This document shows positions 7,336 to 27,310 of a DNA stretch of 29,831 nucleotides, one piece after another. How positions within the stretch are numbered: the stretch's first letter is position 1; every line of letters starts with the position of its first letter. The DNA is from a virus: IMG/VR virus record IMGVR_UViG_3300011258_000121, positions 1-29,831 of that record, one strand, 5' to 3'. The position numbers were made by a program, and so were the translations under genes. The notes under the pieces are model-generated. The model made no database searches. It was not told the origin of the DNA and saw only the letters and a list, made by a program, of their open reading frames with translations.

Positions 7336-10300
7336 ATGGCAGGTTACGCAAGACAGTCATCGGCAGATATTGTTGCAACAGCCGTTGTACGTGCGAACCC
7401 ATTGAATGTAGAGTTTAACGCTTTACGTGATACTTTTGCATTAGCTACAGGACATACACATGATGGATCAGCTACAGAGGGCGGTTATGTACCTCTTATT
7501 GCTGACTCGGACGCACTAAATAAAATAGCTATTGACACTAGTAATAATAGAGTTGGGATATTTGTTGAGGTATCTAGTGCTGCAGTAGAGCAAATACGTA
7601 TTCAAGATGGTGCTATTGTTCCTGTAACTGATAGTGATATTGACTTAGGTACATCTACTTTAGAATTTAAAGACTTATTTCTTGATGGTACTGCACACAT
7701 AGATACACTTGATGTAGATGCAAATGCTGGTATCATAGGTAATTTAACAGTAAGTGGCAACACCACTCTTGGTGATGCAGCATCCGATACAGTCACTGTT
7801 ACTGCTGATGTAGCTTCACCACTTATTCCTTCTACTGATGACACATATGACCTTGGTGCTAGTGGCTCTGAGTGGCGTAACTTATACATTGACGGTACTG
7901 CTAATATTGATGCACTTGTAGCTGATACTGCAGATATTAATGGTGGTACTGCTGATGGTGTAGTTATAGGTGGCTCTAGTGCTGCTGCTGGTACATTCAC
8001 TTCTTTAACTGCTACAGGCACATCTACACTTACTACTGTTGATATTGATGGTGGTGCTATTGATGGTGCTATTATTGGTGCTAACTCTGCTGCTGCTATT
8101 ACAGGCACTACTATTACAGGTACATCTCTTGTAGGTGCTGTAACAGGTAATGCTGATACTGCAACTGCACTTGAAACAGCAAGAAATATTGGCGGTGTTA
8201 GCTTTGATGGTACAGCTAATATTAACTTACCGGGTGTTAATACTTCGGGTAATCAAGACACATCAGGTACTGCAGCAAATGCAACGGTACTTGAAACTGC
8301 TAGAACAATCGGTGGTGTTTCCTTTGATGGTAGTGCCAATATTAATCTTTCTGGTGTTAATGCTGCGGGTAATCAAGATACCTCTGGAAATGCAGCTACG
8401 GCTACTACACTTGCAACAGCTAGGACTATTGCGGGGCAATCGTTTAACGGTTCTGCTAATATTACTATTGCTGCTACTGATCTTTCTGATACTGACCAAA
8501 GTCTAGCAACAGGTGACAACGTACAGTTTGCCCAAGTAACAACTACAGCCAATGTTATTGTTGGTGGTGATCTAACAGTCAATGGAACTACTACCACTGT
8601 TGACACGACTAACATGGTTGTGTCTGATGCACTGATTGAGTTAGGCAATGGTACTACAGGTACACCTGCCAATGATGCTGGTATTGTAATTGAACGTGGT
8701 GATGCAGCTAATGCATTCATTGGTTATGATGAAAGTGCAGATAAGTTCACTGTAGGTACAGGTACATTTACTGGTGCATCCACAGGTAATCTGTCTATCA
8801 CTACAGGTACTCTTGTTGCCAACATCGAAGGTGACGTAACGGGTGATCTTACAGGTAATGCTGTTACAGCTACAGCCTTAGCAACTTCACGTACAATTGC
8901 TGGTCATTCTTTCGATGGTACAGCTAACATCAGCATTGCTCCTACCGATTTAACTGGGGTTAATAGTACCGCTGCTGAATTAAACATCATGGCGGGGGGT
9001 ACGTCAGCCACCAGCACAACTCTCGCAGATGCTGACCGTGTAGTGGTCAATGATGCTGGTACTATGAAGCAAGTCGCACTGACTGACTTTGAAACGTACA
9101 TGGAGACTAGCTTAGATACTCTCAGCAATGTGACTGCAGTCGGGGCATTAAACAGCGGTAGTATTACATCAGGCTTTGGTGCTATTGATGTTGGTTCTTC
9201 TGCTATTACTACTACAGGCACGATGACCTTCGGCTCACTAGCTGATGGCTCTATTACTATTACAGGCTTTGTAGATGAAGATGATATGTTATCTAATTCT
9301 GCTACTCTTATTCCTACTCAACAGTCTGTTGAAGCACGTATTCAAGCAGTTAATAGTTCATCCAACAACGTAACTGGCCTTAATGCTACAGGCGCAGAGA
9401 TTAACACAGTAGCAGACCCTGTTACGTCTATCGGTACAACAGCCGTAGCTGGTGGCGATGGGATCGTTACGCAGGACACATCTGACAATGTAATGCTACA
9501 GACTACTGTCGATACGTTTGATACCTATCTGTCGCAGACCACCAAGACGCTTACCAATAAGACACTGACTAGCCCAATAGTAACTGGGCTGCACCTTAAT
9601 GACTCAGGCTTCACCGTTGAAGGTTCGGCTGAGGATGGCAATGACACTACAGTAGCCTTCACTAACCCGACTGCCGATAGAACAATTACTTTGCCTGATG
9701 CTACAGGTAATCTGGCTGTATTTACTACGGCTCCCACGGCTGCAATCACTGACGGTTCATCAGGACAGTTTTTAACAACTGATGGCTCTGGTGCATTGAG
9801 TTTTGCTACTGCTGGTGGTGGTGGTGCTTCTGCTTCAGATGATTTGTATATTGCCAATCCTAGTTCAGCCACAAACCCTAGTGCGACAGGGGATAATGCT
9901 GTGGCGATTGGTAGTGGATCGGTAGCCTCTGGGTTAAAAACATTTGCAATAGGTACCGACACTGATGCTACTGGGCTTTACAGCTTTGCTATCGGTCAAG
10001 GCGCACAAGCCACAGCAAACTACAACTTAGCTATAGGCTTAAATGCAGTTTCTTCTGGGGAACGGGCAGTTGCTATTGGCAACAACTCTGTAACAGCTTC
10101 TGCCAGTTGGAGTACAGCAATTGGCAATAACTCTGGCAATGGTGGTTCCAAAGCCGTTACAGGTTCAGGCGCAATGGCCCTCGGCGGCTCCTACGCATCT
10201 GGCACAAATTCCTTCGCAGCAGCTATAGCCGACAACGCAGCAACCTACGGGGCTCTTGGCGCTAACTCTGTGGCGATTGGGTATCGGGCGAAGGCATCAG

Positions 10301-11016
10301 GTTCTTTTAGTTCAATAGCATTTGGATCGGACGCTGTGTCTAGTGGTCGTGCTTCCATTGCCATTGGAGAAGGGGCAACCGCTTCCGCAGACAGTGCGGT
10401 GTGCTTCGGTGAGGACTCAACTGCATCTGGGGCAAATTCTTCTGTACTAGGTGGATTGGATAATACTGCGAGTGCATTAAGGTCTGTTGTCCTAAACGGT
10501 TATCAGAACACAGCAAGTTATGACTACTCAATCGCCTCTGGCGCAAATTCAAAGTCTGATAAGTGGGCAAAGGTTTCCCATGCTGGCGGTCAGTTTTCTT
10601 CGCAAGGGGATGCCCAAACAGGCACGATGGTTCTCCGTAGCGACACCACAGACGCAACACCTGAAGCATTGACTGCCAACAATCTTACCGCTGCTACAAC
10701 TAACCAAGTCATCCTCCCCAACAACTCTGCTTACAGTTTCAGCGGCACCATCGTAGCCCGTCAGCAAGCGTCAGCAGGCACAGCCTCTGCAGCATGGAAG
10801 GTTGAGGGTCTGATCCGCAGAGAAGGTTCCGCCAGCACAACCGTGTTAGTCAACAGCGCCACTACAGTTTTGGACAATACACCTTCATGGGGCATGTCTC
10901 TTAGTGCAGATACGACCACAAACGGGGGTGGCCTTAAAATTCAGGTCACAGGCGCAGCGTCAACAAATATCCGCTGGGTAGCAACAATCAACACTTCTGA
11001 AGTCACATACGCTTAA
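7336..11016 (+). CDS. large modular tail fibre with YadA-like beta-roll
   Basis: A 1226-residue protein starting 3 bases after the nozzle gene. Residues 1-60 (including HTHDGSATEGGYVPL) are a likely virion anchor. Residues ~60-260 are short beta-structured repeats of the DLGTSTLEFKDLFLDGTA type. Residues 271-390 hold 40-residue repeats with TARTIGGVSFDGSANINL, with a further copy near 507-540. Residues ~720-830 are a linker module seen in many fibres (TTKTLTNKTLTSPIVTG). Residues ~853-1075 are YadA/Hep_Hag-type repeats (NAVAIGSGSVAS, YSFAIGQGAQAT). The C-terminal ~150 residues probably bind the receptor or drive trimerisation. Wobble positions change from mostly T/A in the first half to more C/G after about base 9000, suggesting a mosaic gene. 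The role is host recognition. Confidence 0.82.
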   Translation: MAGYARQSSADIVATAVVRANPLNVEFNALRDTFALATGHTHDGSATEGGYVPLIADSDALNKIAIDTSNNRVGIFVEVSSAAVEQIRIQDGAIVPVTDSDIDLGTSTLEFKDLFLDGTAHIDTLDVDANAGIIGNLTVSGNTTLGDAASDTVTVTADVASPLIPSTDDTYDLGASGSEWRNLYIDGTANIDALVADTADINGGTADGVVIGGSSAAAGTFTSLTATGTSTLTTVDIDGGAIDGAIIGANSAAAITGTTITGTSLVGAVTGNADTATALETARNIGGVSFDGTANINLPGVNTSGNQDTSGTAANATVLETARTIGGVSFDGSANINLSGVNAAGNQDTSGNAATATTLATARTIAGQSFNGSANITIAATDLSDTDQSLATGDNVQFAQVTTTANVIVGGDLTVNGTTTTVDTTNMVVSDALIELGNGTTGTPANDAGIVIERGDAANAFIGYDESADKFTVGTGTFTGASTGNLSITTGTLVANIEGDVTGDLTGNAVTATALATSRTIAGHSFDGTANISIAPTDLTGVNSTAAELNIMAGGTSATSTTLADADRVVVNDAGTMKQVALTDFETYMETSLDTLSNVTAVGALNSGSITSGFGAIDVGSSAITTTGTMTFGSLADGSITITGFVDEDDMLSNSATLIPTQQSVEARIQAVNSSSNNVTGLNATGAEINTVADPVTSIGTTAVAGGDGIVTQDTSDNVMLQTTVDTFDTYLSQTTKTLTNKTLTSPIVTGLHLNDSGFTVEGSAEDGNDTTVAFTNPTADRTITLPDATGNLAVFTTAPTAAITDGSSGQFLTTDGSGALSFATAGGGGASASDDLYIANPSSATNPSATGDNAVAIGSGSVASGLKTFAIGTDTDATGLYSFAIGQGAQATANYNLAIGLNAVSSGERAVAIGNNSVTASASWSTAIGNNSGNGGSKAVTGSGAMALGGSYASGTNSFAAAIADNAATYGALGANSVAIGYRAKASGSFSSIAFGSDAVSSGRASIAIGEGATASADSAVCFGEDSTASGANSSVLGGLDNTASALRSVVLNGYQNTASYDYSIASGANSKSDKWAKVSHAGGQFSSQGDAQTGTMVLRSDTTDATPEALTANNLTAATTNQVILPNNSAYSFSGTIVARQQASAGTASAAWKVEGLIRREGSASTTVLVNSATTVLDNTPSWGMSLSADTTTNGGGLKIQVTGAASTNIRWVATINTSEVTYA
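8146..8505 (+). repeat. three tandem 120-bp repeats in the fibre gene
   Basis: Residues 271-310, 311-350 and 351-390 of the fibre align without gaps, each with an ETAR(T/N)IGGVSFDG-like core; the third has diverged (TARTIAGQSFNGSANI). A partial fourth copy lies near 8854-8950. It is a beta-structured shaft module common in phage fibres. Confidence 0.7.
9892..10560 (+). repeat. YadA/Hep_Hag-like beta-roll repeats
   Basis: About 14-16-residue repeats with the core AIGxxAxAxG (for example AVAIGNNSVTASA and ASIAIGEGATASADSA) span fibre residues ~853-1075. This pattern is known from trimeric autotransporter adhesin heads, where it forms a left-handed beta-roll that binds host surfaces. Confidence 0.75.
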
Positions 11017-11031
11017 AAGGAGCAAACTAAG

Positions 11032-11334
11032 ATGGCTATTACGAATAACATCACTACAGAAAATTCACAGTACGGCATCGCTTTCAACGGGGCTTACTAC
11101 CGTATTGTTACAGCGGCAGTCTCACGACAACGTGGTACTGATCCAAAGTTTAGCGTCATGATTGACCTGTCTGGTTATGCAGCAACTCCTGATGATGACA
11201 CCCGTGAGGTAGACTTTAAACGGTATCACGCACCACTTACTGAAATTGAAGCTGCCGCAGGGAATACGTTTATGGCCCAGTGTTACGCTTGGGTTATGGC
11301 TCAAGCTGATATGTCAGGCTCTACTGCAGTATAA
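11032..11334 (+). CDS. small conserved phage protein between fibre genes
   Basis: A 100-residue protein with a good AAGGAG ribosome-binding sequence, 15 bases after the main fibre. It opens MAITNNITTENSQYGIAFNG and continues AYYRIVTAAVSR, KFSVMIDLSGYAA and a C-terminal helix with NTFMAQCYAWVMAQAD. The first two-thirds look beta-structured. I recall similar small proteins beside tail-fibre genes in marine phages but no assigned function. Its place inside the fibre cluster suggests a minor tail component or fibre-connecting protein. Confidence 0.65.
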   Translation: MAITNNITTENSQYGIAFNGAYYRIVTAAVSRQRGTDPKFSVMIDLSGYAATPDDDTREVDFKRYHAPLTEIEAAAGNTFMAQCYAWVMAQADMSGSTAV

Positions 11335-11343: not shown

Positions 11344-12504
11344 ATGACTCTTGTAATTGATTACTCAAGTGGTATCTTTGAGGCAGCACCTTCAGGTGAA
11401 ACTGTTGGTACTGTTACAGGTAATGCCACTTTAGATTTAACATCCGGTAATCTTTTTAATCATACACCTACTGCTAACACTACCTTTGTGTTTAGCAATC
11501 CACCTACTACGGGTAGTGCATACGATATGACACTGAAGGTAGTAGGGGCTAACGTTACTGCTGGGTATGGCTTAGCTAATGCAAGTTACGATAGTGTTAG
11601 CTTTAGTGTAAGTGGGCAGGAAAGTATCCCTATTGGGTTGTTTTTTAAGCCTGATGGCACAAAGATGTATGTATCAGGCCCAAACTCAGACGCCGTTTTT
11701 CAATACAGTTTGTCTACAGCTTGGGACCTAAGCACTGCATCTTACGATAGTGTTAGCTTTTCTGTTTCTTCACAGGACTTGAGTGCTGCAAGCATTTACT
11801 TCAAATCAGATGGCACTAAGATGTATTTGGCTGGGTACACTGGTGACAGCGTGTATCAATATACCTTGTCTACTGCATGGGACTTGTCAACAGCATCGTA
11901 TGACAGCGTTAGCTTTTCTGTAGCATCTCAAGCAACCACACCGTTTTCGTTAATATTTAAGCCAGATGGCACTAAAATGTTTTTAACAGATGGCACAAGT
12001 GACGCTGTGAAAGAATATTCATTAAGCACGGCTTGGGACATTTCCACTGCATCATATCAAGCGAGTTTTGGTGTGGCTTCTCAAGAAACAAACCCTTATG
12101 GATTAGAGTTCAATCCAGATGGCACTAAAATGTATATTGTCGGCATTACAACCGATACTGTCTATGAATATGCCCTGTCTACCGCTTGGGATATAACGAC
12201 CGCTTCTTATAGCAGTGTTAGCTTTTCTGTAGCTTCGCAATCTTCGCAACCAGCTCCCGTTAGTATGAGATTCGGCAACGATGGTCAAAAACTTTATGTT
12301 TCTGACGCTGGCTCAGACACCATTTACCAATACTCCACAAGCACAACAGCATTAGCAACACTCACATACCCTTCCTCAGTAAAGTGGGCTGGGGGTACTG
12401 CACCATCTGCTCCTGCTAACGGTAACAAGGATGTGTACAACTTCTTCACAATTGATGGCGGCACCACGTACTACGGTTTCCAAGCAGGAGATGCAATGGC
12501 ATGA
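11344..12504 (+). CDS. propeller tail-fibre protein 1 (one 5-blade cassette)
   Basis: A 386-residue protein, first of four tandem paralogues. Residues 1-80 (MTLVIDYSSGIFEA, TLDLTSGNLFNHTP, ANTTFVFSNPP) and the last 47 residues (LTYPSSVKWAGGTAPSAP, FTIDGGTTYYGFQAGDAMA) are the two halves of a domain I know as contiguous in many phage fibres. Between them, residues 81-339 hold five blades of 51-52 residues. Their consensus is SYDSVSFSVxSQ, GLxFxPDGTKMY, DxVYQYSLSTAWDxSTA. Each reads as a four-stranded propeller blade, and the array starts with one outer strand and ends without it, as in a Velcro-closed ring. The function is probably surface or glycan binding. The gene ends in an ATGA overlap with the next. 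Confidence 0.75.
   Translation: MTLVIDYSSGIFEAAPSGETVGTVTGNATLDLTSGNLFNHTPTANTTFVFSNPPTTGSAYDMTLKVVGANVTAGYGLANASYDSVSFSVSGQESIPIGLFFKPDGTKMYVSGPNSDAVFQYSLSTAWDLSTASYDSVSFSVSSQDLSAASIYFKSDGTKMYLAGYTGDSVYQYTLSTAWDLSTASYDSVSFSVASQATTPFSLIFKPDGTKMFLTDGTSDAVKEYSLSTAWDISTASYQASFGVASQETNPYGLEFNPDGTKMYIVGITTDTVYEYALSTAWDITTASYSSVSFSVASQSSQPAPVSMRFGNDGQKLYVSDAGSDTIYQYSTSTTALATLTYPSSVKWAGGTAPSAPANGNKDVYNFFTIDGGTTYYGFQAGDAMA
11584..12360 (+). repeat. propeller cassette A, 5 blades
   Basis: Five repeats of ~156 bp (52, 52, 52, 51 and 52 residues). The entry DNA GCAAGTTACGATAGTGTTAG (from 11581) recurs with little change at the other cassettes. The exit contains GACACCATTTACCAATACTC (12316-12335). Confidence 0.85.
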
Positions 12505-13652
12505 CTGTGCTTATTGATTATACCAAAGGCTTCTTTGAGACAACAGAAGGCGATACTGTTGGTACAGTTACAGGCAATGCTACGTTGGACCTATCGACAG
12601 GCTCTGTGTTTAGCCATACGCCTACTGCCAATACCACCTTTGCATTCACCAATCCTGCAGCATCAGGTACATCTTCTAGTGCAACGTTAAAGCTGACAGG
12701 GGCTAACGTTACTGCTGGGTATAACTTAGCTAATGTAAGTTACGATAGTGTTAGCTTTAGCGGGGCAACTCAAAGCTCCGGTATGAACACTTTTTCACTT
12801 GGTTATGAAGGCAGCCGTTTGTATATGGTTGACAGTACTAATGATACCATCTACCAATATAATCTAACAACTCCTTATGATATTTCCACGGCGAGCTACT
12901 CAACGAAAAGTTTTTCTGTTGCGACACAAGAAGGTTCCCCTTCGGGAATATATTTTAAACCAGATGGGCAGACTGTTTTTGTTGGTGGTTATAGCTCTGA
13001 CACAATATACCAATATAGTCTCAGCACAGCTTGGGATATTTCTTCTGCAAGTTATGCTTCAAAGTCGTTTTCCGTTTCTGCTCAAGAAACTGTACCAAGA
13101 AACTTTTGGGTAAACCCTGCTGGCACAAAGCTATTTTCAGTGGGGCAAACTGGAGACGATGTGAACGAGTATACTCTTTCTTCTGCATGGGATATTAGCA
13201 CTGCTTCCTACACGCAAAACTTTAGCGTTGCCGCACAAGATACTACTCCAATTGGAATATATTTTTCACCAGCCGGAGATAAAATGTTCATTGCTGGTTC
13301 GGTTGGAGATTCCGTTTACCAATACACCCTTAGCACGGCCCTTGATATATCTACAGCCTCCTACGACAGCATTGCTTTTAGTATTTCTGGGCAAGATAAT
13401 TCGCCCATTGGCGTTGCTTTCAATGGCACCGGCTCCAAGATGTATGTCGTAGGCGCTACTAGCGACACCGTCTACCAATACTCCATAAACACAACAGCAT
13501 TAGCAACAATAACTTACCCTTCCTCTGTTATTTGGTCAGGTGGCACAACACCAACAGCACCTGCCAATGGTGAGACTGATGTGTACTCATTCTATACGGA
13601 CGATGGCGGTACAACATATTACGGATTTGTATCAGGAGATGCTTTAGCATGA
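12501..13652 (+). CDS. propeller tail-fibre protein 2 (one 5-blade cassette)
   Basis: A 383-residue paralogue of the preceding gene, overlapping it by 4 bases (ATGA). It has the same plan. The N-terminal half-domain (residues 1-79) has MTVLIDYTKGFFET, TLDLSTGSVFSHTPTANTTF and ATLKLTGANVTAG. Five blades follow (80-336), then a 47-residue C-terminal half (ITYPSSVIWSGGTTPTAP, YTDDGGTTYYGFVSGDALA). The flanking halves are much closer to those of protein 1 than the blades are, so the propeller evolves faster or was exchanged. Blade 1 is the most diverged (FSLGYEGSRLYMVD). The role is inferred to be receptor or surface binding as part of a fibre set. Confidence 0.75.
   Translation: MTVLIDYTKGFFETTEGDTVGTVTGNATLDLSTGSVFSHTPTANTTFAFTNPAASGTSSSATLKLTGANVTAGYNLANVSYDSVSFSGATQSSGMNTFSLGYEGSRLYMVDSTNDTIYQYNLTTPYDISTASYSTKSFSVATQEGSPSGIYFKPDGQTVFVGGYSSDTIYQYSLSTAWDISSASYASKSFSVSAQETVPRNFWVNPAGTKLFSVGQTGDDVNEYTLSSAWDISTASYTQNFSVAAQDTTPIGIYFSPAGDKMFIAGSVGDSVYQYTLSTALDISTASYDSIAFSISGQDNSPIGVAFNGTGSKMYVVGATSDTVYQYSINTTALATITYPSSVIWSGGTTPTAPANGETDVYSFYTDDGGTTYYGFVSGDALA
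12738..13508 (+). repeat. propeller cassette B, 5 blades
   Basis: Five blades of 50-52 residues. The entry DNA differs from cassette A by very few bases (GTAAGTTACGATAGTGTTAG from 12735). The exit has GACACCGTCTACCAATACTC at 13464-13483. Confidence 0.85.
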
Positions 13653-15583
13653 GTGTATCAATAGACTATACTGGCGGTGTATTCCAAGCCAACAAAGCCA
13701 AGAGTGTTGGTACAATTACGGCTGGCACCGGAACGTACAACCTTGCTGTTGCGAGTTATGATAGTGTTAGTTTTAGTGTGGCTTCTCAGGAGGCTAATCC
13801 GTTTGGTATGTTTTTTAAGCCAGATGGCACTGCTTTATATTTATGTGGCACTAGTGGCGATGATGTAAATGAATATTCTTTGTCTTCTGCATGGGATATT
13901 AGCACAATGAGTTTTGTACAAAACTTTAGTGTTTCATCACAAGAAACCGTGCCAACATGTATTTTCTTTAAGAACGATGGAACTAAGATGTTTATAGCAG
14001 GGCAAGGGTCAGATGCTATAAATGAATATACTCTTTCTACTGCATGGAATGTTTCAACTGCTTCTTATACGCAAAACTTTAGTATTTCCTCACAAGAGGC
14101 GGCAGTTAGAGGTTTATTCTTTAAAGGTGATGGAACTAAGATATATGTAGCTGGCACTTCTGGTGATGATGTAAACGAATACAATCTAAGCACAGCTTGG
14201 GATATATCTACTGCATCATTTAATCAGGTTTCTTCATCTATCTCATCTCAAGTAGCAAGTGTAGCGAGTTTGTATTTTTCACCAGACGGTGGTTATTTTT
14301 ATGTGACAGACGATTATAATAATGATGTTTCTGAATATTCTCTATCAACTGCTTGGGACGTAAGCGCTATATCTTATGTACAAAACTTCAGTGTCTACTC
14401 AGAGGGAACTAATGTTACAGGTTTATCTTTTAAATCTGATGGTTCAAAGATGTATGTACTTAATCGCACTAACGACACCATTTATCAATACAGCACAGGC
14501 ACAGCTACAAGCCTAGACATCTCCAGCGGCACATACTTCAACTACACGCCATCAGTCAACACCACGTTTACTTTTGGTAATGCACCAGCATCTGGCACGG
14601 CGGCTGGCTTTGCTTTGGCACTTACTGGTGGTAATGCGGCTGCGGTATATGACATTGCTAATGCAAGTTACGATAGTGTTAGCTTTAGTGTGGCTTCTCA
14701 GGATGGTGTACCTGTAGGTATTACCTTCAAACCTGATGGCACATCTATGTTTATTACTGGCAATGGTAATGACAATGTGTACCAGTACACACTTAGCACG
14801 GCTTGGGATGCCTCAACTGCTTCTTATGCATCCAAAAGTTTCAGTGTGGCTACTCAGGAAACTGCTGTTTCTGGGTCTGCGTTTAAGCCTGATGGCACTT
14901 TGTTATACGTTTGTGGGTCGGGAACAGACAGTGTTTTTCAATACACACTAAGCACAGCTTGGGATATTTCCACTGCCTCTTATGCATCTAAAAGTTTTAG
15001 CTTCAGTACACAAGATAACGTTGTTACTGGAGTAGCCTTTAATGATGACGGTACTAAAATGTATATTTCAGGAAGTGGTAACGACACAATATTTCAATAC
15101 AGTTTAAGCACAGCTTGGGATATTTCCACTGCCTCTTATGCATCTAAAAGTTTTAGTGTTTCATCAATAGAGGGAAGCCCAAGGCAGTTAAACTTTTCAC
15201 CAACAGGTAATAAACTGTGGTTTACGGGTTTAGATACTGGTTATGTTTATGAATTAGATCTTTCAACAAATTTTGACATATCAACAGCGTCCTATAATAG
15301 CGTTAATTTTTCTACGGCAACACAAGCCTCTAGCCCAACAGCAACATTCTTTAAAACTGATGGTACAAAGATGTATGTTGTCGGCATTGCTACCGACACC
15401 GTCTACCAATACACCACAGGCTCTTCAGCAACAGCCACCTTCAGCTATCCAGCATCAGTTGAGTGGCCTTCAGGCACAGCCCCTACTGGTCCAGCAATAG
15501 GTCAAACAGATGTGCTGGTCTTTTACACAGACGATGGTGGAACTACGTATCAAGGCTTTAGAGCAGGGGATGCAATGGCATGA
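13649..15583 (+). CDS. propeller tail-fibre protein 3 (two 5-blade cassettes)
   Basis: A 644-residue paralogue joined by ATGA overlaps on both sides. The split fibre domain is interrupted twice. Residues 1-35 (MSVSIDYTGGVFQA, SVGTITAGTG) lead into five blades (36-288). The host domain resumes at 289-339 (LDISSGTYFNYTPSVNTTF, ASGTAAGFALALTGG), then five more blades (340-597), then the usual end (FSYPASVEWPSGTAPTGP, YTDDGGTTYQGFRAGDAMA). The second insertion point is the one used in proteins 1 and 2; the first, between the GTITAG and LDISSG segments, is unique here. Ten blades as two rings fit better than a single 10-blade ring, because host-domain sequence separates them. Confidence 0.75.
   Translation: MSVSIDYTGGVFQANKAKSVGTITAGTGTYNLAVASYDSVSFSVASQEANPFGMFFKPDGTALYLCGTSGDDVNEYSLSSAWDISTMSFVQNFSVSSQETVPTCIFFKNDGTKMFIAGQGSDAINEYTLSTAWNVSTASYTQNFSISSQEAAVRGLFFKGDGTKIYVAGTSGDDVNEYNLSTAWDISTASFNQVSSSISSQVASVASLYFSPDGGYFYVTDDYNNDVSEYSLSTAWDVSAISYVQNFSVYSEGTNVTGLSFKSDGSKMYVLNRTNDTIYQYSTGTATSLDISSGTYFNYTPSVNTTFTFGNAPASGTAAGFALALTGGNAAAVYDIANASYDSVSFSVASQDGVPVGITFKPDGTSMFITGNGNDNVYQYTLSTAWDASTASYASKSFSVATQETAVSGSAFKPDGTLLYVCGSGTDSVFQYTLSTAWDISTASYASKSFSFSTQDNVVTGVAFNDDGTKMYISGSGNDTIFQYSLSTAWDISTASYASKSFSVSSIEGSPRQLNFSPTGNKLWFTGLDTGYVYELDLSTNFDISTASYNSVNFSTATQASSPTATFFKTDGTKMYVVGIATDTVYQYTTGSSATATFSYPASVEWPSGTAPTGPAIGQTDVLVFYTDDGGTTYQGFRAGDAMA
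13754..14512 (+). repeat. propeller cassette C1, 5 blades
   Basis: Blades of 52, 51, 51, 52 and 47 residues. Entry is GCGAGTTATGATAGTGTTAG from 13751; exit is GACACCATTTATCAATACAG from 14474. Four blades have the shorter (V/T)QNFSV-type outer strand or a variant of it, unlike C2. Confidence 0.85.
14666..15439 (+). repeat. propeller cassette C2, 5 blades
   Basis: Blades of 52, 52, 52, 52 and 50 residues. The entry matches cassette A in its first 20 bases (from 14663); exit is GACACCGTCTACCAATACAC from 15395. A 50-bp exact direct repeat lies at 14951-15000 and 15107-15156, spaced by one 156-bp unit. Confidence 0.85.
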
Positions 15584-16416
15584 GTATCGCAAGATTAATG
15601 CAAATGGCGGCGGCTAGGGGTGGTTACGTGTGGGCCGACCCAGACCTAGCTAATGCAAGTTATGATAGTGTTAGTTTTGATGTAAGTGGGCAGGCGCCTG
15701 GACCGACAGAGGTTGTGTTTAGCGCCAATGGGTCAAAGTTATATATTATTGGAAACGTAACGGATTCTGTTTATCAGTATTCCTTGTCAACGCCTTTTGA
15801 TTTATCTACGGCATCTTACGATAGCGTTAGTTTTAGCGTAGGCTCTCAAATGGGCAATCCATACGGCCTTTTTTTCAGCCCTGACGGAACAAAAATGTTT
15901 GCTTTGGATATTTCAACGGACGCAGTTTACCAGTATTCCCTTTCAACTGGGTTTGACTTGTCTACAGCTTCATACGACAGCGTGAGTTTCAGTGCTGCGA
16001 GCCAAGATACGAATACAATAGGACTTTCTTTCAACCCCGAAGGTACAAAAATGTTTGTGCTGGGAATTACGGGAGACGCAGTTTACCAATACTCTCTCTC
16101 AACTGGGTTTAACCTAAGCACCGCATCATACGACAGTGTTAGTTTTAGTGTCGCTAGTCAAGATACTGTCCCCTCAAGCATAAGGTTTAACCCCGATGGC
16201 ACTCGGCTCTTTGTGCTTGGTGTAGTTACAGACGCAGTTTACCAATACTCTCTCTCAACTGGGTTTAACCTAAGCACCGCATCGTATGACAGCGTTAGTT
16301 TTAGTGTCGCTAGTCAAGAAGCCACTCCATACGGATTTGACTTTAGTTCGGACGGCTCAAAAATGTATGTCGTAGGTTTTGACAACGACACCATCTACCA
16401 ATACTCAACAGACTAG
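15580..16416 (+). CDS. propeller protein 4 (5 blades, no fibre half-domains)
   Basis: A 278-residue protein joined to the preceding gene by an ATGA overlap. It has a different 26-residue start (MSIARLMQMAAARGG, YVWADPDLANA) and then only five blades of 52 residues (27-278), ending at VYQYSTD-type exit sequence. Both halves of the fibre domain carried by its three neighbours are absent. The blades are the most uniform of the cluster; blades 3-5 share QYSLSTGF(D/N)LSTASYDSVSF. A YTVT-like structural start such as MSIARLMQMAAA is one I recall from other phage fibre-end proteins. It may be a cap, an adaptor, or a cassette donor for the other genes. Confidence 0.7.
   Translation: MSIARLMQMAAARGGYVWADPDLANASYDSVSFDVSGQAPGPTEVVFSANGSKLYIIGNVTDSVYQYSLSTPFDLSTASYDSVSFSVGSQMGNPYGLFFSPDGTKMFALDISTDAVYQYSLSTGFDLSTASYDSVSFSAASQDTNTIGLSFNPEGTKMFVLGITGDAVYQYSLSTGFNLSTASYDSVSFSVASQDTVPSSIRFNPDGTRLFVLGVVTDAVYQYSLSTGFNLSTASYDSVSFSVASQEATPYGFDFSSDGSKMYVVGFDNDTIYQYSTD
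15658..16413 (+). repeat. propeller cassette D, 5 blades with near-identical DNA
   Basis: Five blades of 156 bp (last one shortened). A 53-bp exact repeat at 16075-16127 and 16231-16283 continues with three mismatches for about 35 more bases. This suggests recent duplication or gene conversion. Exit is GACACCATCTACCAATACTC at 16387-16406. Confidence 0.85.
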
Positions 16417-16424: not shown

Positions 16425-16937
16425 ATGTACGTTAAACTCACAAACGGTCAGCCCGACCAATTTCCATACACAGTTGGGCAATTTCGCCGTGATAATCCAA
16501 ACACATCTTTCCCACGCCAGATACCTAATACGATCTTGCGCAGGTATGCAGTCTATGAGGTTACTGAATTAGCTAAACCCTCATATGATCCGCTGGTGCA
16601 AACACTTGTAGTAGGTACACCTACACGGGAAGTTATTCGGTTAAAGACTGAAGCTGACTGTACTGACCCTGAGACAGGTGAGGTAGATACAGATCAGGTA
16701 GGACAACCTCTGTACGGCAACGAGTGGGAAGTATCTTACACTGCACAAAATATGGAACAAACCACTGCAGAGTCTAACGTAAGAGCTAGACGTGATAGCT
16801 TATTGCAAAAGACTGATTGGATGGCGAACTCTGACGTAACCATGTCAGACGCATGGCGCACGTACCGACAGGCTTTGCGTGACGTTCCTAGCCAATTACC
16901 AAGTACAACTATTACTTGGCCTACGGAGCCTAGCTAA
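16425..16937 (+). CDS. putative tail-fibre assembly chaperone
   Basis: A 170-residue protein following the fibre cluster, the usual place of fibre-assembly chaperones. The N-terminal half has a beta-type pattern (MYVKLTNGQPDQFPYTVGQF, RYAVYEVTELAKPSYDP). The C-terminal half has the typical pattern RARRDSLLQKTDWMANSDV, then AWRTYRQALRDVPSQ, found in the phage tail assembly chaperone/DUF4376-like group. It probably helps fold or attach one of the upstream fibres and may not be in the virion. Its stop overlaps the next start by one base (TAATG). Confidence 0.7.
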   Translation: MYVKLTNGQPDQFPYTVGQFRRDNPNTSFPRQIPNTILRRYAVYEVTELAKPSYDPLVQTLVVGTPTREVIRLKTEADCTDPETGEVDTDQVGQPLYGNEWEVSYTAQNMEQTTAESNVRARRDSLLQKTDWMANSDVTMSDAWRTYRQALRDVPSQLPSTTITWPTEPS

Positions 16938-17675: not shown

Positions 17676-17941
17676 TGATTAATATTGTTGTGTTACCCCT
17701 TGTGTTAGCAGGGCTGTTAAGTCACCCTGAGTTTGTACAGTGTCACCTAGCAAAAAGAGTTAAGATACAGGGAGAAATGGTTTGCATTTACCGTGGACCT
17801 AATGGTACAATAGGCTACCACTACCCTATGTTTAAGTTTAGTGAGTGCCCTAAGACATACATGTGTAGGTATACACCTAATGCTAAAAAAAGAGTAAGTG
17901 TTCAAGATATACTTGACGGATTAAAGGACGGATTTGAATAA
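17675..17941 (+). CDS. small exported cysteine-containing protein
   Basis: An 88-residue protein with an N-terminal hydrophobic stretch (MINIVVLPLVLAGLLS) that looks like a signal peptide or anchor. It is followed by a compact domain with four cysteines (residues 23, 37, 58 and 64) that could form two disulphides in the periplasm. No lipobox is visible. It overlaps both neighbours by one base, so it belongs to the same translational string as the two membrane proteins upstream. An outer-membrane partner of a spanin pair is one possibility but is not shown by the sequence. Confidence 0.55.
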   Translation: MINIVVLPLVLAGLLSHPEFVQCHLAKRVKIQGEMVCIYRGPNGTIGYHYPMFKFSECPKTYMCRYTPNAKKRVSVQDILDGLKDGFE

Positions 17942-20919
17942 TGATTAACCCAGCAGTTAATAAAAATATTGATACAGCTAATTCACGTGCAGCTACGGCA
18001 CAAGATCAGAATATTGTTAGTCTTATAAATAAAACTAAAAGTGCAATAAAAGCTCGTGGTGGAAATGTAGAAAGTCCTGCTGCAAAGGCTCTTGTTAATA
18101 GGGCTATTATGATCTATGAGCAAGGGAGAGGGACTAAAGTTGTAACTGCTTCTTCTGGTACATTTACCTATGGTCAATGGAACGGAAAAAAATTAGATGA
18201 TTTAAGTGGTGCTGAAAGACGTGCTTATGAAGTGGCGATGAATGAGCATCAAGCACAACAAAATAAAGGGGCTCCAATTACTACAGCTCCAAGTACTTTA
18301 CAGACCACTGGAAAGCCCGGCATTTTGAAAGACAAGCTAGATCTTTATGACACTAGGGGGTGGGCAAATCAAGTTGAAACAGATCCAACCAACCCGCTTG
18401 ACATTGCTGATGAAGAAGAAAGTACTACAGTTAAAACACCCGAAGAGTTAGCTGCTGAAGCTAAAGCTGCTGAAGAAGCCGCAGCAAAAGCTGCTGCTGA
18501 TGCGGAGAAAGAAAGACTAAAGGGTATGGCTGACACTGCTAGAGAAGGTCAAAGACAGCTAGTAGTTGATGTTAGCTCTGACCCCACATCCGCAGTTGAA
18601 AGTCCTGATGTAAAAACAATCATGAATAACACTTATGATGCTGATGGTAATCTTACTTCAAGTATACTCCCTACAGGTACAACTGTAGCTGACTCCGCTG
18701 GTAAAATTGCCACACCATTAGAAATAGCTGGCAAAAAAGGAGAGTACGTACCCCCTGTCATGAGTGAAGATGGTACTACTGTTGTTACACCGGGATATTA
18801 TCCAAGTACAGGACCAAAAGGAGTGGCAGTAGCTACTGAGGTAGATCAACCTGATGATATTACAGCTACTAAAACAATTAATAAGACGGCAATAGGTGAT
18901 ACTAAATCTGCACTGTCAGGTGGAGAAAGAGATTACTTAACAGTCCCACTTGAGAATGTAGAGTTTAAACCTATGGAGTTTGAAGGTGGTGTAGTTCCAC
19001 CTGAACTAGCAGCTCAATTAGAACCTACAGAAGAAGAACAAGTTAAACTTAATGAAGTTTCTGCTAAATTTGATCCTCAAGTAGATGCTGCAAATTCTGC
19101 TGTAGCTACCTTTACTATGAGTGATCCCCCCACAGAAGAAGAAACAGCAGAACTAGAAAGATTACAAAATGTTGTAACAAGTCTTGAACAACAAAAAAAA
19201 GTTGCTTCTAATGCAATTCTTTCTGTAACTTTTCACAACCCTACAACAGGAGAAAAGATTACAGTTGACAGAGAAACAGCAGTACTATCAAATCCACCGG
19301 AAGGTTTTGTTAAAGGGGAACCTGAAGGTAAATTTAAAGATGGTAGCTTAGAGTCAGCACAAGGTACTGTATCTGATGAAGCTAAAGTGACTGCTGCTCA
19401 AGGTGATTCTAAAAGTATTACTGGAACTGGTTTAGATAAGATAGCTCAATTAGGTACAAACATTTTTGATGCTGACGGTAATGTTATTGTTGATAAAAAT
19501 GGGGAACCTATAAAAGGTAACTTTACTCAGATTGATGCTTTAGATGACACAACTAAACGTAAGCTACTAACTGAAGATGTATATGATGCAGATGGTAAGA
19601 TTGTTAGTAGAAAAGAAACCCTAGATGAAACTGGTTTTACTACCGAAGAACAAAAAGACATAGATGATACAATAGCTAAAACAAAAGCTGCACAAATAGA
19701 TACCGGAGCTAGAGACACATATGATAAAGACGGTAATCTTGTAAAGAAAGGTGATAAAGGTTACACAGTCAAAGCTCAACTAGATGACTTAATGAGTGAC
19801 TTTGAGGGTGGTGCTACACCAGCATGGGCAGCAGGAGCCATGAGAGCAGCCTCAGCAGCTATGGCTGCACGTGGGCTAGGTGCTAGTAGTATGGCTGGAC
19901 AAGCTATCATACAAGCTACTATGGAGTCTGCGTTACCTATTGCACAGGCTGATGCTGCAACTATTGCCCAGTTTGAAAGAGACAACTTAAGTAATAGACA
20001 GCAAGTTACTGTTCTTGCTTCACAACAGAGGGCCGAATTTCTTAAGGTAGAGTTTGATCAAAAGTTTCAAGCAAAGGTACTTAATGCTGCAAAGATTTCT
20101 GACATTGCTAACTTAAACTTTACTGCTGATCAACAGATCACTTTAGAAAATGCAAGGTTAGCACAGACAGCAAACATATCAAACATGAATGCAAAAAATG
20201 CTAAGGTTATGGCTGATGCCTCAGCTATGGCAACGATGGATTTAAAGAACCTAGACAACAAGCAACAAGCTGCTGTACAAAACGCTAAGTCATTCTTAGA
20301 AATGGACATGGCTAACCTAGACAATGCGCAAGAAGCATCTATGTTTAAAGCTCAAGCTATTGCTGCAGCTATCTTGTCGGACACCGCTGCTGAAAATGCT
20401 TCACGTCAGTTCAATGCTTCTAGTGAAAATCAAACTAATCAGTTTATGGCTAACTTAAAAACATCTGTTGATCTTGCTACTGCTGCACAGAAGAATGCTA
20501 TCTCTATGGCTAATGCTGACGCAGAAAATACTTTAGAACAATTCAATGCAAGTTTGCAAGAAAACCGCACACAATTTGAAACTTCAAATGGTTTAGTTAT
20601 AGCACAAGCTAACGCACAGTGGAGGCAAAATGCAGAAACACTAGACACCGCTGCACAGAATGAAGCTAATATGATTGACGCTGCTACCATCAACACGTTT
20701 ACCAAGGCTGTTATAGATCAGATATGGCAGAGAGAACGTGATATCATGGACTATTCTTTCAAAGCTAATGAGCAGAAAGCGGATCGTGATGTAAGTATTC
20801 TTCTTGGGGATAAAACAGCAGCTCAGTATGAAACAATAGCAAAAATCAACGCCGCCTCTGCAGAAGACACGGCAAAGGGTGAACTTATAAATGATCTCGT
20901 TGATGAGATCTTTTTTTGA
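17941..20919 (+). CDS. large internal virion/ejection-type protein
   Basis: A 992-residue protein. Residues 1-90 are a small N-terminal region (SLINKTKSAIKARGG, RAIMIYEQGRG, YGQWNGKKLDDLSGAERRAY). A Glu/Ala/Lys-rich segment follows (~150-200), then a long acidic middle with four Y/F-D-x-D-G-(N/K) motifs near residues 232, 509, 548 and 594. Residues ~620-660 have WAAGAMRAASAAMAARGLGA, a segment I recall as conserved in marine podovirus internal proteins. The remainder to ~980 is Ala/Asn/Gln-rich helix. This fits a protein stored in the capsid and ejected with DNA. The last codons form a terminator-like hairpin. Confidence 0.7.
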   Translation: MINPAVNKNIDTANSRAATAQDQNIVSLINKTKSAIKARGGNVESPAAKALVNRAIMIYEQGRGTKVVTASSGTFTYGQWNGKKLDDLSGAERRAYEVAMNEHQAQQNKGAPITTAPSTLQTTGKPGILKDKLDLYDTRGWANQVETDPTNPLDIADEEESTTVKTPEELAAEAKAAEEAAAKAAADAEKERLKGMADTAREGQRQLVVDVSSDPTSAVESPDVKTIMNNTYDADGNLTSSILPTGTTVADSAGKIATPLEIAGKKGEYVPPVMSEDGTTVVTPGYYPSTGPKGVAVATEVDQPDDITATKTINKTAIGDTKSALSGGERDYLTVPLENVEFKPMEFEGGVVPPELAAQLEPTEEEQVKLNEVSAKFDPQVDAANSAVATFTMSDPPTEEETAELERLQNVVTSLEQQKKVASNAILSVTFHNPTTGEKITVDRETAVLSNPPEGFVKGEPEGKFKDGSLESAQGTVSDEAKVTAAQGDSKSITGTGLDKIAQLGTNIFDADGNVIVDKNGEPIKGNFTQIDALDDTTKRKLLTEDVYDADGKIVSRKETLDETGFTTEEQKDIDDTIAKTKAAQIDTGARDTYDKDGNLVKKGDKGYTVKAQLDDLMSDFEGGATPAWAAGAMRAASAAMAARGLGASSMAGQAIIQATMESALPIAQADAATIAQFERDNLSNRQQVTVLASQQRAEFLKVEFDQKFQAKVLNAAKISDIANLNFTADQQITLENARLAQTANISNMNAKNAKVMADASAMATMDLKNLDNKQQAAVQNAKSFLEMDMANLDNAQEASMFKAQAIAAAILSDTAAENASRQFNASSENQTNQFMANLKTSVDLATAAQKNAISMANADAENTLEQFNASLQENRTQFETSNGLVIAQANAQWRQNAETLDTAAQNEANMIDAATINTFTKAVIDQIWQRERDIMDYSFKANEQKADRDVSILLGDKTAAQYETIAKINAASAEDTAKGELINDLVDEIFF
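20893..20917 (+). terminator. terminator-like hairpin inside the end of a coding region
   Basis: GATCTC (20893-20898), 6-base loop, GAGATC (20905-20910), then seven T (20911-20917). The T-run encodes the final Phe-Phe and the first base of the TGA stop. The 6-bp stem has moderate GC, so termination may be partial. A 61-base AT-rich gap without a clear promoter follows before the next gene. Confidence 0.55.
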
Positions 20920-22421: not shown

Positions 22422-23504
22422 ATGGGTATGTGGCAAGGGATAAGAAATTCTAGGGTAAGAAATAGAGAAAGAAAGGCGGAAGAAGAAGCTCAAGCTAAAC
22501 TTGATGTTTTAAACTCTGAGAACATGCGCCTTAAGAAACTTGATATGGCTTTAAAGTATTCTCATAAACGTGCTGTAAATCCCTATGGTAGCAGTACTAC
22601 TACAAGCACTGGGGGTAAAGATATACCTACTGTTGAACACAGTCTAGCAGAACTCACAGCAATGGATATACCAGAAGATATTATTCTTAAGGTTGCTGGT
22701 GGTGGTGCTGGAGATTTAGATAAACTTGTAAAAGAGTTTTCAAAAACTGTAGAAAAACATAAAACAGAATATGGTGATATACCTATGGCACCTGAGATGT
22801 TTATTAATGCTTTACAAACAGCAGTAATAACACAACCAAAAAAAGTTGGTGTTAATATAGATGAAGTTTTAGAGTTATTTAAAGTAGAAGCATCAGAGGC
22901 AGAACGTACTATGTTCCCTGCACCTGTAGCACCAAGACAACGTATAACACTTAGGCCGGGCAGCTTGAATGTTATACCTGCTCTTAAACCTGAAGATCTT
23001 CCTAAAGCTGTTCAAGCTATAAGTACAAATGTTATTATTAGTGCTGCAGGAGAATTAAATAAATTAAAGGGTGTTAAAGGAGATGAAACACTACAAGCCG
23101 TAGACCCTGAAATTAATACTTGGTTAGCTAATAGAATTGGTCAAGTTGAAGCAGCTCTAGCAAGGGCGCAAGGAGACATACCTATTTTAACAGAAATTTT
23201 TGGTCTTTACGGAAATTCTTATGCAAGTCAGTACATTGAAAGTCAACCAATACTAAAAAATGCAGTTAAGATGGGGCAATTTCCAGAACAATATGCTACT
23301 GCTCTTGCTCGTCCTGATTTAGATTTGAGTAAGAATCAACTTGGTGAATCTGCAACACCCGAGTACGGAGAGAAAATACTGGTATACTTACTAGAGAATA
23401 AGTTAGTGCCTCTGGGTACTAATGTTAAGTTTTTTGACAAAAATAATGTCCTCTCTGTTCAAACTATAACAGAAGACTTGCTGCGTAGATACGGAGTAAA
23501 TTAA
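22422..23504 (+). CDS. putative internal virion protein
   Basis: A 360-residue protein between the preceding gene and the largest gene, overlapping the latter by one base (TAATG). The N-terminus is a basic, highly charged helix (GIRNSRVRNRERKAEEEAQA), followed by a Ser/Thr/Gly linker. The rest is mainly helical (EHSLAELTAMDIPEDIILKV, KPEDLPKAVQAISTNVII, INTWLANRIGQVEAALARAQ). No enzyme motif was seen. In podoviruses, three or four such proteins in a row next to the largest gene form the ejected inner core, so I infer this role. Confidence 0.6.
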   Translation: MGMWQGIRNSRVRNRERKAEEEAQAKLDVLNSENMRLKKLDMALKYSHKRAVNPYGSSTTTSTGGKDIPTVEHSLAELTAMDIPEDIILKVAGGGAGDLDKLVKEFSKTVEKHKTEYGDIPMAPEMFINALQTAVITQPKKVGVNIDEVLELFKVEASEAERTMFPAPVAPRQRITLRPGSLNVIPALKPEDLPKAVQAISTNVIISAAGELNKLKGVKGDETLQAVDPEINTWLANRIGQVEAALARAQGDIPILTEIFGLYGNSYASQYIESQPILKNAVKMGQFPEQYATALARPDLDLSKNQLGESATPEYGEKILVYLLENKLVPLGTNVKFFDKNNVLSVQTITEDLLRRYGVN

Positions 23505-26500
23505 TGGGTAGTACTTTAGAATCTTTTTTAGGTTTATCTGGGGCATCACCGTCTATTAATTCTTCTAGTTTACCTGTGCCGATTGAAGAAGAAGAAGAAG
23601 AAAAGGTTATTAATAGTCAGACCTTAGAGGAATTTTTAGGTACCACTGCTAAACCTAAAAGTGACTTTAATAGTAACACTTTAGAATCTATTTTAGACGG
23701 GGCCATACCAACACCTTTACGTAAGGTAGTCCCTCAAGGCCCACAAAGTTCTCTCTTCATAGACCTTGACCAGCACTTTGCAGATAAGTATGATAACAAA
23801 CCTTTAATTAAAGAAGACATTATCTCAGACCCTGCCCTAATAGAAGTTATGGCAAGTGCAATGGAAGCTAGGTTTAAACCAGCAGGTCTCCTTAAGAAAG
23901 GTTACAAAGCTGCCACTGCTACTGCTGGTGGAACCATAGGTGGTTTAGACAGGGACTACAGGTCTATGTCACCTGAAGATTTGTTTGAAACATATCAGAA
24001 CTATCAAAGATCTTTAGCTGGATTGCAAACTGTAACTGTAGCTAATGAATCTGTGTATGGTATAACTGCTGATGATATGACAAGAGCCAAACTTGGTGCA
24101 GGTTATAAGCTGTTCAACCAGATGGATAATGCATTTACTGGTGAAGGTACTTGGTCTGAAGCTGCCGATGCTACAGCAGACTATTTTAGAGCTGGTGTCC
24201 ATGACCCAAGTATGTTATTTGGTATTGGTTTTGGTAGACTACTAAGCGTAGGTACAACCAAAGCAACAGGACTAGCCTTAAGAACTCTTGCACAAACTAC
24301 ATATAAAAAATTACTTAAGGCACAGCTTGCTAAAGGTGTAGCTTTACCTGCTGCTAAACAGGCTGCACGTGTCAGTCTAGGTAAGAGAGCTGCTGCTACT
24401 GCTGTAGTTGCACCTGCAATAGTAGACGGTGGTATTAGTATGGGTGCTGACGTTGCGTATCAAATGCAACTAATTCGTACTGATGCACAAGAAGCCTACA
24501 GTAAATATCAAACAGCATTTGCTGCTCTTGGTAGCATGGTGTTGCCATCTCTTGTACTAACTAAAGAAGTTATCAAAACCCTAAGAGCAAAGGGTAAACT
24601 TACACCTGACTTTGCAAGATACATAGACCTAGACCTTACTCTTGGTAAGCTTGATCCTAAAAAAGCAATGGCCCACGTCAAAGCTAAATTAAGCCCTAGT
24701 ATGGGTGGTATCTTCACTGCAGTAGATGCAAACTTTGGAACAATACGTGGTAGTACAAGACCTGTAGACTTTAAAGTTTGGGACGATGCTAAACAAGATG
24801 CATCTGGAACGTTGAGTCAACTGGGCGGTAAAATGGGTGACAACGAGTTGACCACTCAGTTCTTTCGTAGGTTTTTCTTTGGTGATGACAGTCAAAACTT
24901 AAAAGGTTATGCTCAAGTACTAGAGGAAGCTGGCTTTCAAGTTCATCCTAGTATGAGAGAAGATGGTAAAATTAGTGGTATCTATGGTCAAACTATTAGC
25001 TGGCTTGATGATGATGTTGTGGAAAGAATAACAACACAGTATGAAAATACTATTGGTAGGCCTATAGGTTTAGGTAAAACCTCAAAGGAACTAAGCAAAC
25101 AATTTATACAGATACAATCTGGTTCTGGTGCTGCACTTAATGTAAGCTCTATACTTGGGCAAATCTCTGGTGGTAAACTTACAGCAGCAGAAAAATTATC
25201 TGCTATGGCAGGTAAGTACCATAAGGGTGGTGACAAACCAAAAAGAATGCAGTTTGGTTTATCCGTATACAAACGTCTACTTACTTCTCATCTATCTACT
25301 ACAGGTGCTAACCTTAAGGGTTTTAAACAACTTGTTACACTTAATAATTTATCCGACTTTGCTACCTCTGCTATAAACTTTAGTCAGAGTGGTGCGTATA
25401 AGTTAATAGGTAACACTGCAAAATCAGAGGTGTACTACAACAGAGGCTGGGGTTCTGCTGCTGGTGCTGTACGTAGGGGTTACTCCGTGGTATCACCTGA
25501 CATTGAGATGGCATACGCTAGAAAATACTTTGACTTAGACCCTAAGACTAGAGAAGCATTGTTCAGAGATGTTGCTGGTGACGGTGGTGCTTTTGATAGC
25601 ATCAAACAATTTAACTTAGACCCAGATGATAAAATTTATAAAGGTGTTGATGCTTACACTAAAATGATGCAAACAATATCTTTAGCAAGAGTACAAGATG
25701 ATATAACTAAAACTTGGGCCTTTGGCAATAACATGAACCAAGCTATCATGAGAGAGTATGGAATAACACCTGAACAATTCTTTAAAGGTGAATGGAAATC
25801 AGGTCAAGTTTCTAAAGAGGCTGTCCATCTGGCTATGGGTGAGAAAAGATTTCTTACTAACGTAGCAGAAAAGGCTTTGTTTAGAACTCAAAGAGAAACT
25901 GCTTCTGTTAATTGGAGTAGGTTAAAAGAAGATGTTGGATTTAGTTTTAGAGATATGGCTGAATACATTGAGATTGCGACTAATAAAACCCCTTTTGGTT
26001 TTGTAGTTCCCTTTGGCTCTTTCTTAAATACAACCCTTGCTACTGCTGCTGATCTAACTGGCGTAAATGCAATGCGTATAGCTATGATGAAAGCAACAGG
26101 TAAAGAGATTGATTTTGTAACAAGAGAAGGCTCTGAGATATTAGGCAAAACTATTGTTGGTTACAGTACAATAGGTCTAGCAACCTACGGACTGTCAGAT
26201 ACTGATACTGACATGCTACCTCATGAACAAAAAAATACTGCTGTTTACCGTGTTAAAAATGGTCTAGCATATAACCAACAAGTTCTTAATGATGGTTCTA
26301 TTGCTGATGTAAGATATGATTGGCCCAACTCTACAATACAAGTAACAGCTCAAATCTTAGCTCATGCTACTATGGGAGAGTTTGATAATCTTACTAGCCT
26401 TAACTTTGATAAAGTGCCCCCTGATTTAGTTGTAGAATTACTTTCTCAATTAGGTGGTCAATCAATCAGAGATATGGAAAGTTTGACTGAACAAAGTATC

Positions 26501-27310
26501 TATGTTTTTGGAGAAAATCTTGCCAGAGAAATTCAAGATGACGATTACATGGGTATAGTTGACGCAGTACTTGGACCTTTTATAGCACGTGCTGGTCAAG
26601 GTCTTACTAGACACGTAGAACCAGCCAATGAGTTTTACAAATTGTTTACTGATCAAAGTGGCGCACCTGATTTAAATATGGCACCGTATGAATACCAAGG
26701 TTACATAAAATATATTGATGGTTTAGTTGGCGGTCTTACACCTGCTGGATCAGAAGAAACATACTCTGATCTGCCAAGAAAACTTGATGTATTTGGTAGG
26801 ACTGCACCGACAAAGATAAGCAAACAAATAATGTTTAGGCAGTCAGGAGAACCTATCTCTGCAGAGATGATGATGAATGCTGCAGGTATACCTAGCTGGA
26901 AAGCTACAAAGTTTGATGGCCCTGCTGTTGTCAAAAGAAAAATGCAAACCTTAGTCAACCCCTACTTTGAGATTGCTGCTATAAAATACCTAAACAGATA
27001 CCCAGACTTCTTTGAGATGGAACAGAAAAAGAAAGCACAGATTGTAGCTGACATGCAGAAAGAAGTTCAAGGTAATGTTAAAGCTTTGTTTGATGATGGA
27101 TACATGCCAGAAAGTTTAACCATGCTTAGAGTTTTATCTAAGCCTAGCAACAAAAAGAAATCCCTAGAAGCAATGAAGTTCTTAGGGATTACTGGTAGCT
27201 TAGAAGATGTGTACAAAAGAGAAGACGCATTGTCAAAGTTAAACTTGATCAACATCTTAATACAGAAAGATAACTATAGAGCAGTAGTCCAAGGCTTTGG
27301 CCTAGACTAA
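23504..27310 (+). CDS. largest internal virion/ejection-type protein
   Basis: A 1268-residue protein, last of the plus-strand block. Its size and place match the large ejection protein of T7-like phages (gp16 class), though I cannot show homology. Residues 1-70 are a disordered acidic tail with three short repeats: STLESFLG (3-10), QTLEEFLG (39-46) and NTLESILD (58-65). Gly/Ala-rich hydrophobic segments lie at ~245-350 (VVAPAIVDGGISMGADVAYQ, LGSMVLPSLVLTKEV) and ~820-900 (NKTPFGFVVPFGSFLNTTLA), possible membrane-contact regions. No lytic transglycosylase motif is visible; the wall enzyme is the separate GH19-like gene. The stop overlaps the convergent minus gene by 4 bases. Confidence 0.7.
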   Translation: MGSTLESFLGLSGASPSINSSSLPVPIEEEEEEKVINSQTLEEFLGTTAKPKSDFNSNTLESILDGAIPTPLRKVVPQGPQSSLFIDLDQHFADKYDNKPLIKEDIISDPALIEVMASAMEARFKPAGLLKKGYKAATATAGGTIGGLDRDYRSMSPEDLFETYQNYQRSLAGLQTVTVANESVYGITADDMTRAKLGAGYKLFNQMDNAFTGEGTWSEAADATADYFRAGVHDPSMLFGIGFGRLLSVGTTKATGLALRTLAQTTYKKLLKAQLAKGVALPAAKQAARVSLGKRAAATAVVAPAIVDGGISMGADVAYQMQLIRTDAQEAYSKYQTAFAALGSMVLPSLVLTKEVIKTLRAKGKLTPDFARYIDLDLTLGKLDPKKAMAHVKAKLSPSMGGIFTAVDANFGTIRGSTRPVDFKVWDDAKQDASGTLSQLGGKMGDNELTTQFFRRFFFGDDSQNLKGYAQVLEEAGFQVHPSMREDGKISGIYGQTISWLDDDVVERITTQYENTIGRPIGLGKTSKELSKQFIQIQSGSGAALNVSSILGQISGGKLTAAEKLSAMAGKYHKGGDKPKRMQFGLSVYKRLLTSHLSTTGANLKGFKQLVTLNNLSDFATSAINFSQSGAYKLIGNTAKSEVYYNRGWGSAAGAVRRGYSVVSPDIEMAYARKYFDLDPKTREALFRDVAGDGGAFDSIKQFNLDPDDKIYKGVDAYTKMMQTISLARVQDDITKTWAFGNNMNQAIMREYGITPEQFFKGEWKSGQVSKEAVHLAMGEKRFLTNVAEKALFRTQRETASVNWSRLKEDVGFSFRDMAEYIEIATNKTPFGFVVPFGSFLNTTLATAADLTGVNAMRIAMMKATGKEIDFVTREGSEILGKTIVGYSTIGLATYGLSDTDTDMLPHEQKNTAVYRVKNGLAYNQQVLNDGSIADVRYDWPNSTIQVTAQILAHATMGEFDNLTSLNFDKVPPDLVVELLSQLGGQSIRDMESLTEQSIYVFGENLAREIQDDDYMGIVDAVLGPFIARAGQGLTRHVEPANEFYKLFTDQSGAPDLNMAPYEYQGYIKYIDGLVGGLTPAGSEETYSDLPRKLDVFGRTAPTKISKQIMFRQSGEPISAEMMMNAAGIPSWKATKFDGPAVVKRKMQTLVNPYFEIAAIKYLNRYPDFFEMEQKKKAQIVADMQKEVQGNVKALFDDGYMPESLTMLRVLSKPSNKKKSLEAMKFLGITGSLEDVYKREDALSKLNLINILIQKDNYRAVVQGFGLD

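Follow-up and report, generated by a model that had tools for sequence, protein, structure and literature searches.

Five-bladed propeller rings predicted in the tail-fibre module of an HMO-2011-type marine podovirus

Background

Five-bladed propellers are already known in phage receptor-binding proteins. Gp45 of the Staphylococcus phage phi11 is a receptor-binding protein with a five-bladed propeller in which an N-terminal strand joins the last three strands, and propeller domains are also present in the putative receptor-binding proteins P2 of PRD1, where the propeller is five-bladed and distorted, and gp131C of PhiKZ, where it has seven blades (PMC4901313). Gp45 is a host-recognition propeller of five blades closed by an N-terminal strand, an arrangement that is also predicted for the rings described here; it differs in having a coiled-coil stem and a single ring in each chain, and was absent from the sequence matches when solved structures were searched by profile. 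P2 and gp131C, unlike the present rings, are not described as tandem domains or loop inserts. In the open-access literature on fibre propellers of marine phages or on the surface proteins of SAR11, we found no description of this ring family. What appears to be new is a repeat-built family in which the number of blades is fixed at five and which is arranged as loop inserts, has a variable face and also occurs in surface proteins of bacteria.

The window analysed here is the virus record IMGVR_UViG_3300011258_000121, of 29,831 bases. Its coat protein shares 81% identity with the one from roseophage CRP-9 and 72.5% with the one from Puniceispirillum phage HMO-2011, which places the structural module in the HMO-2011 type common to many marine phages (PMC8528129). 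The host of this podovirus probably belongs to the marine Roseobacter group. Another contig, L084, matches over 11 kb at 99.9% identity.

Results and discussion

The rings are encoded by four consecutive genes, A to D, each overlapping the next as ATGA, within a fibre module that adjoins a fibre assembly chaperone (Table 1). The sequence-only reading had proposed a host-recognition role for these genes, and the context agrees with such a tail-fibre role: a fibre-tip scaffold is part of the same chains, the chaperone lies downstream, and the long YadA-head fibre protein lies upstream, where it possibly forms the shaft. Some relatives keep the neighbourhood in which the small 100-aa protein lies. 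Judging by their position, the two large proteins encoded further downstream are probably internal virion or tail proteins.

Table 1. Features of the fibre module and additional genes in the window
Feature	Position	Strand	Evidence
Long tail fibre protein, 1226 aa, YadA-head repeats	7336..11016	+	family matches
Small protein, 100 aa, without family match	11032..11334	+	
Gene A, 386 aa; loop 2 of its tail-fibre tip domain carries one five-blade ring	11344..12504	+	
Gene A scaffold, first half of split fibre-tip domain	11392..11568	+	alignment
Ring A, 5 blades	11569..12339	+	profile HMM
Gene A scaffold, second half; PHROG tail fibre families 7760 and 9017	12340..12501	+	family match
Gene B, 383 aa: layout as gene A	12501..13652	+	
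Ring B, 5 blades	12726..13490	+	profile HMM
Gene B scaffold, C-terminal piece; matches in fibre proteins of CRP-603, CRP-4, CRP-13 and P-TIM68	13491..13649	+	
Gene C, 644 aa; two loops of its fibre-tip domain each carry a ring	13649..15583	+	
Ring C1, 5 blades, insert in loop 1	13739..14497	+	profile HMM, AlphaFold2
Gene C middle scaffold piece, between C1 and C2	14498..14650	+	alignment
Ring C2, 5 blades, insert in loop 2	14651..15418	+	profile HMM, AlphaFold2
Gene C C-terminal scaffold piece	15419..15580	+	alignment
Gene D, 278 aa; one ring following a short N-terminal helix, scaffold absent	15580..16416	+	
Ring D, 5 blades, pLDDT about 96-99 over the ring	15643..16413	+	profile HMM, AlphaFold2
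Tail fibre assembly chaperone, PF16778 / PHROG 4912	16425..16937	+	family match
Large protein, 992 aa, without family matches	17941..20919		
Large protein, 1268 aa, without family matches	23504..27310		
Ribonucleotide reductase gene, PHROG 367, at the window's end	28621..29829	-	

An iterative profile HMM run across the four proteins detected exactly 25 units of about 49-54 amino acids each, arranged in five blocks of five (residues 80-335 of A, 80-332 of B, 35-292 and 339-592 of C, and 26-277 of D), which sharpens the earlier estimate of about 25 units with five in every block. The individual units scored 60-95 bits, against -2.1 bits for the best of the remaining matches, and no 26th unit was identified in the four proteins with this HMM. 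In each unit, the register is outer strand D followed by inner strand A, then B and C. Every block opens with an outer strand (LANASYDSVSF-like), and its last blade stops at the third strand (DTVYQYS-like); therefore, the outer strand is split between the first and last blades, and the block ends seen in the sequence match those noted at first reading. Rings A, B, C1 and C2 share 47-58% identity with ring D and are therefore not recent copies.

Structure prediction with AlphaFold2 yielded confident 20-strand, five-blade propellers for rings C1, C2 and D, as anticipated from the repeat count. The model of gene D (66 alignment rows; pLDDT 95.2, pTM 0.91) comprises four strands per blade; in the model of gene C (23 rows), both rings are mostly at pLDDT 90-98, and the scaffold around them is poorly predicted (pLDDT about 44-68). 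In the D model, the first strand (E27-34) is confidently assigned as paired, and the only edge left open belongs to the last strand of blade 5. Because this last strand is the only free partner for the paired strand 27-34, the ring is predicted to be closed, and we infer that the rings would be locked by the N-terminal outer strand completing the last blade. The Velcro (strand-swap) closure proposed from the DNA is thus predicted from secondary structure and model confidence.

A fold search with the D model retrieved nine predicted viral proteins (TM 0.81-0.92, rmsd 1.2-4.1 Å), one of which is a baseplate wedge subunit. Among solved structures, 3qqz (the C-terminal domain of E. coli YjiK, 243 residues) aligned with the D model at TM 0.64/0.73. 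Seven-blade and WD40 structures reached about TM 0.5 with rmsd of 5-13 Å, and this poor overlay argues against an arc with seven-blade curvature. The two-ring gene C model matched tandem WD40 structures at TM of about 0.25, which is uninformative.

All four proteins match PF10282 (YVTN/lactonase; 27.6-66.1 bits against a cut-off of 21.7), PF08450 also matches above its gathering score, and the blades match the archaeal S-layer protein 1l0q in a profile search (E=1e-15). The blade sequence is therefore like that of the YVTN/lactonase superfamily, but PF10282 is described as seven-bladed whereas the present rings have five blades. Kinship with tachylectin-2, proposed initially, did not hold up: Pfam scans (E up to 0.1) detected no tachylectin family, solved structures searched by profile yielded no tachylectin chain, and the blades match the YVTN/lactonase families. 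Tachylectin-2 has five blades of a length similar to those of the rings here.

Given the Pfam matches above the gathering scores, and the propeller domains contained in endosialidases of several phages (PMC4901313), the rings could be thought of as lactonase- or glycosidase-like enzymes that trim a surface polymer. We consider this very unlikely: the two families match at the level of blades only, the residues kept in every blade (F, DG, Y and strand turns) look structural, and the face where an active site would usually be located is the variable one (see below). Membership in the 6-phosphogluconolactonases was rejected, with the curated equivalog models scoring 18-21 bits against a cut-off of 370.

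Alignment of A, B and C shows that they have in common a split domain that is interrupted by the rings. The C-terminal half of this scaffold matches the PHROG tail fibre families in A and B, and was assigned by alignment in C; D has no scaffold. In gp46 of roseophage CRP-13, the scaffold is uninterrupted, that is, empty, and among other viral proteins the ring occupies loop 1 alone (L042), loop 2 alone (as in A and B) or both loops (as in C); thus, the rings behave as inserts in the fibre tip. A search of phage records with the N-terminal scaffold piece of gene B alone retrieved nothing. In a ring phylogeny that addressed whether loop-1 and loop-2 rings form separate lineages, 11 of the 62 inner branches were supported, the bootstrap was not settled, and the labels clustered only weakly.

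Ring-bearing loci were sampled in three ways, namely, with the five-block query, one single blade, and a SAR11 ring, and these samples share contigs. With the five-block query, complete blocks of five numbered 145 among viral contigs, 104 among genome contigs and 16 among phage records, and there were also runs of 10, 15 and 25. The single blade, a query that can have no bias towards five, yielded 125 blocks of five, seven of ten and four of fifteen; for the SAR11 ring, the corresponding numbers were 180, four and one. The pooled set, which takes in only blocks that are multiples of five, includes 628 ring copies and 458 distinct sequences from viral contigs, phages and bacterial genomes, forming 330 clusters at 70% identity and 103 at 50%. 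The sequence-only reading held that five blades are under selection, and that relatives with 4, 6 or 7 units without pattern would speak against this; across hundreds of rings, we observed runs of 5, 10, 15 and 25, with about five exceptions, which is consistent with selection.

The apparent departures have four blades (L112, L166, L185), three (L203) or eight (L206). The clearest of these is L206:1998-3398, with eight blades in one block, two neighbours being near-identical. A few further fragments resulting from broken frames or contig ends were found, for example in L105 (seven blades, running off the contig end), L188, L245 and L223. On reading, several 4- and 3-blade blocks turned out to contain a degenerate fifth blade or a broken frame, and the 6- and 11-blade blocks in L044 and L098 were rejected as spurious weak matches. 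A viral protein of 2079 aa (L005:4975-11211) contains runs of 10 and 25 degenerate blades.

In three 15-blade runs, the spacing is 51-52 throughout, blades 5 and 10 end in an altered C-D segment, and the blade that follows each such segment opens with an altered outer strand. With the altered segments appearing at every fifth blade, a 15-blade run therefore reads as three rings. The rings are all of a single blade family, with 40-60% identity to the query for most of those sampled, which might suggest that five per block was inherited by recent common descent rather than held by ring closure. This appears extremely unlikely, given the spread of the rings over the clusters listed above, the marking of the 15-blade runs at every fifth blade, and the weakly similar blocks with degenerate blades that, on reading, still number five; furthermore, similar blades within one ring should recombine readily, yet sixes and sevens were unseen save at a contig end.

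The four-gene set had been considered unusual, and this part of the initial reading was not borne out: 34 of the 83 viral loci hold at least two ring-bearing ORFs. The same blade family, with five blades per block, is present in Lentibacter phage ICBM2, in roseophages CRP-2, CRP-9, CRP-13 and CRP-738, and in Synechococcus phages S-SKS1 and S-SCSM2R, where the ring proteins are annotated as hypothetical or baseplate wedge. In these phages, a single protein carries one, two or three rings (three in CRP-2, CRP-9 and CRP-13), whereas the rings here are distributed over four short tandem genes. Lentibacter phage ICBM3, which infects the same host strain as ICBM2, had no ring match, and therefore the ring is not needed by every phage of that host.

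Entropy by blade column is highest at columns 14-21 and 34-38. With the loops defined solely from the D model, we compared 48 disjoint pairs of rings that are 75-98% identical. Amino-acid change per site was 0.204 in the D-A and B-C loops, 0.055 in the A-B and C-D loops, and 0.091 in the strands, a loop-to-loop ratio of 3.7 (2.9-4.9) with the same direction in 44 of the 48 pairs; synonymous change was flat (0.158, 0.182 and 0.162, respectively). In a propeller, the D-A and B-C loops lie together on the face that usually binds ligands. Given that this face varies and that the opposite face and the strands are conserved, the D-A/B-C face is most likely the receptor-binding one. Combining sequence comparison with the model, this is the best evidence for binding: variation on one face would fit a ligand-binding surface, without giving the identity of the ligand.

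Alternatively, the rings might be structural spacers or oligomerisation modules of the fibre that bind nothing. They can be missing from relatives, the scaffold exists in an empty form, the runs of 10-25 blades resemble beads on a string, and relaxed selection on free loops could explain part of the one-face pattern. The focus of amino-acid change on one face at flat synonymous rates, however, is as expected at a binding surface, and bacterial autotransporters display the same ring, so that we regard the spacer role as distinctly unlikely.

In SAR11 proteins, a likely signal peptide and one ring are combined with an autotransporter barrel (PF03797, E down to 1.6e-40). Genomes of SAR11 and SUP05 (L134, L140, L143, L149 and others) encode one five-blade ring followed by the PF03797 barrel. 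Giant bacterial proteins with DUF4347 and cadherin-like domains carry up to four rings. Two giant SAR11/alphaproteobacterial proteins of 3300-4570 aa (L121:899-14596 and L131:3914-13837) contain four five-blade rings each, the latter additionally with DUF4347 and bacterial cadherin-like domains, and an Imperialibacter (Bacteroidota) chain (L150:3419-11377) contains six. Large SAR11 autotransporter adhesins, with the binding target unspecified, were described in 2025 (PMC12636525), and these could be the same proteins. One could speculate that a single ring family, common to marine phages as receptor binders and to marine bacteria such as SAR11 as autotransporter passengers and giant surface proteins, is an exchangeable recognition module on both sides of infection, used for adhesion or as bait or mimic of phage fibres; at present, this idea seems to us unlikely.

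Conclusions

Taken as a whole, the best explanation, to which we assign a probability of roughly 0.75, is that the products of A-D belong to the tail fibres of an HMO-2011-type podovirus, as tip proteins or as accessory fibre proteins, and carry five closed five-bladed rings whose variable face binds a receptor. Each block would fold into a closed propeller, the predicted N-terminal strand serving as the outer strand of blade 5 that locks the ring. Comparison with the empty domain shows that the rings of A, B and C are inserted in loops of the fibre-tip domain, which would project them from the virion. The D-A/B-C loop face would then bind the receptor, which is probably a glycan or a protein of the surface, and several divergent rings per virion may provide more than one receptor specificity or multivalent binding.

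The strict five in a repeat type that is usually filed as seven-bladed offers a natural test of what sets the blade number of propellers. The link to SAR11 suggests what structure some as yet unexplained surface proteins of very abundant bacteria might have. In abundant marine phages, the receptor-binding parts are largely unknown, and the ring, as a module that can be recognised and counted and whose variable face is defined, makes the host range of marine podoviruses testable using single purified domains.
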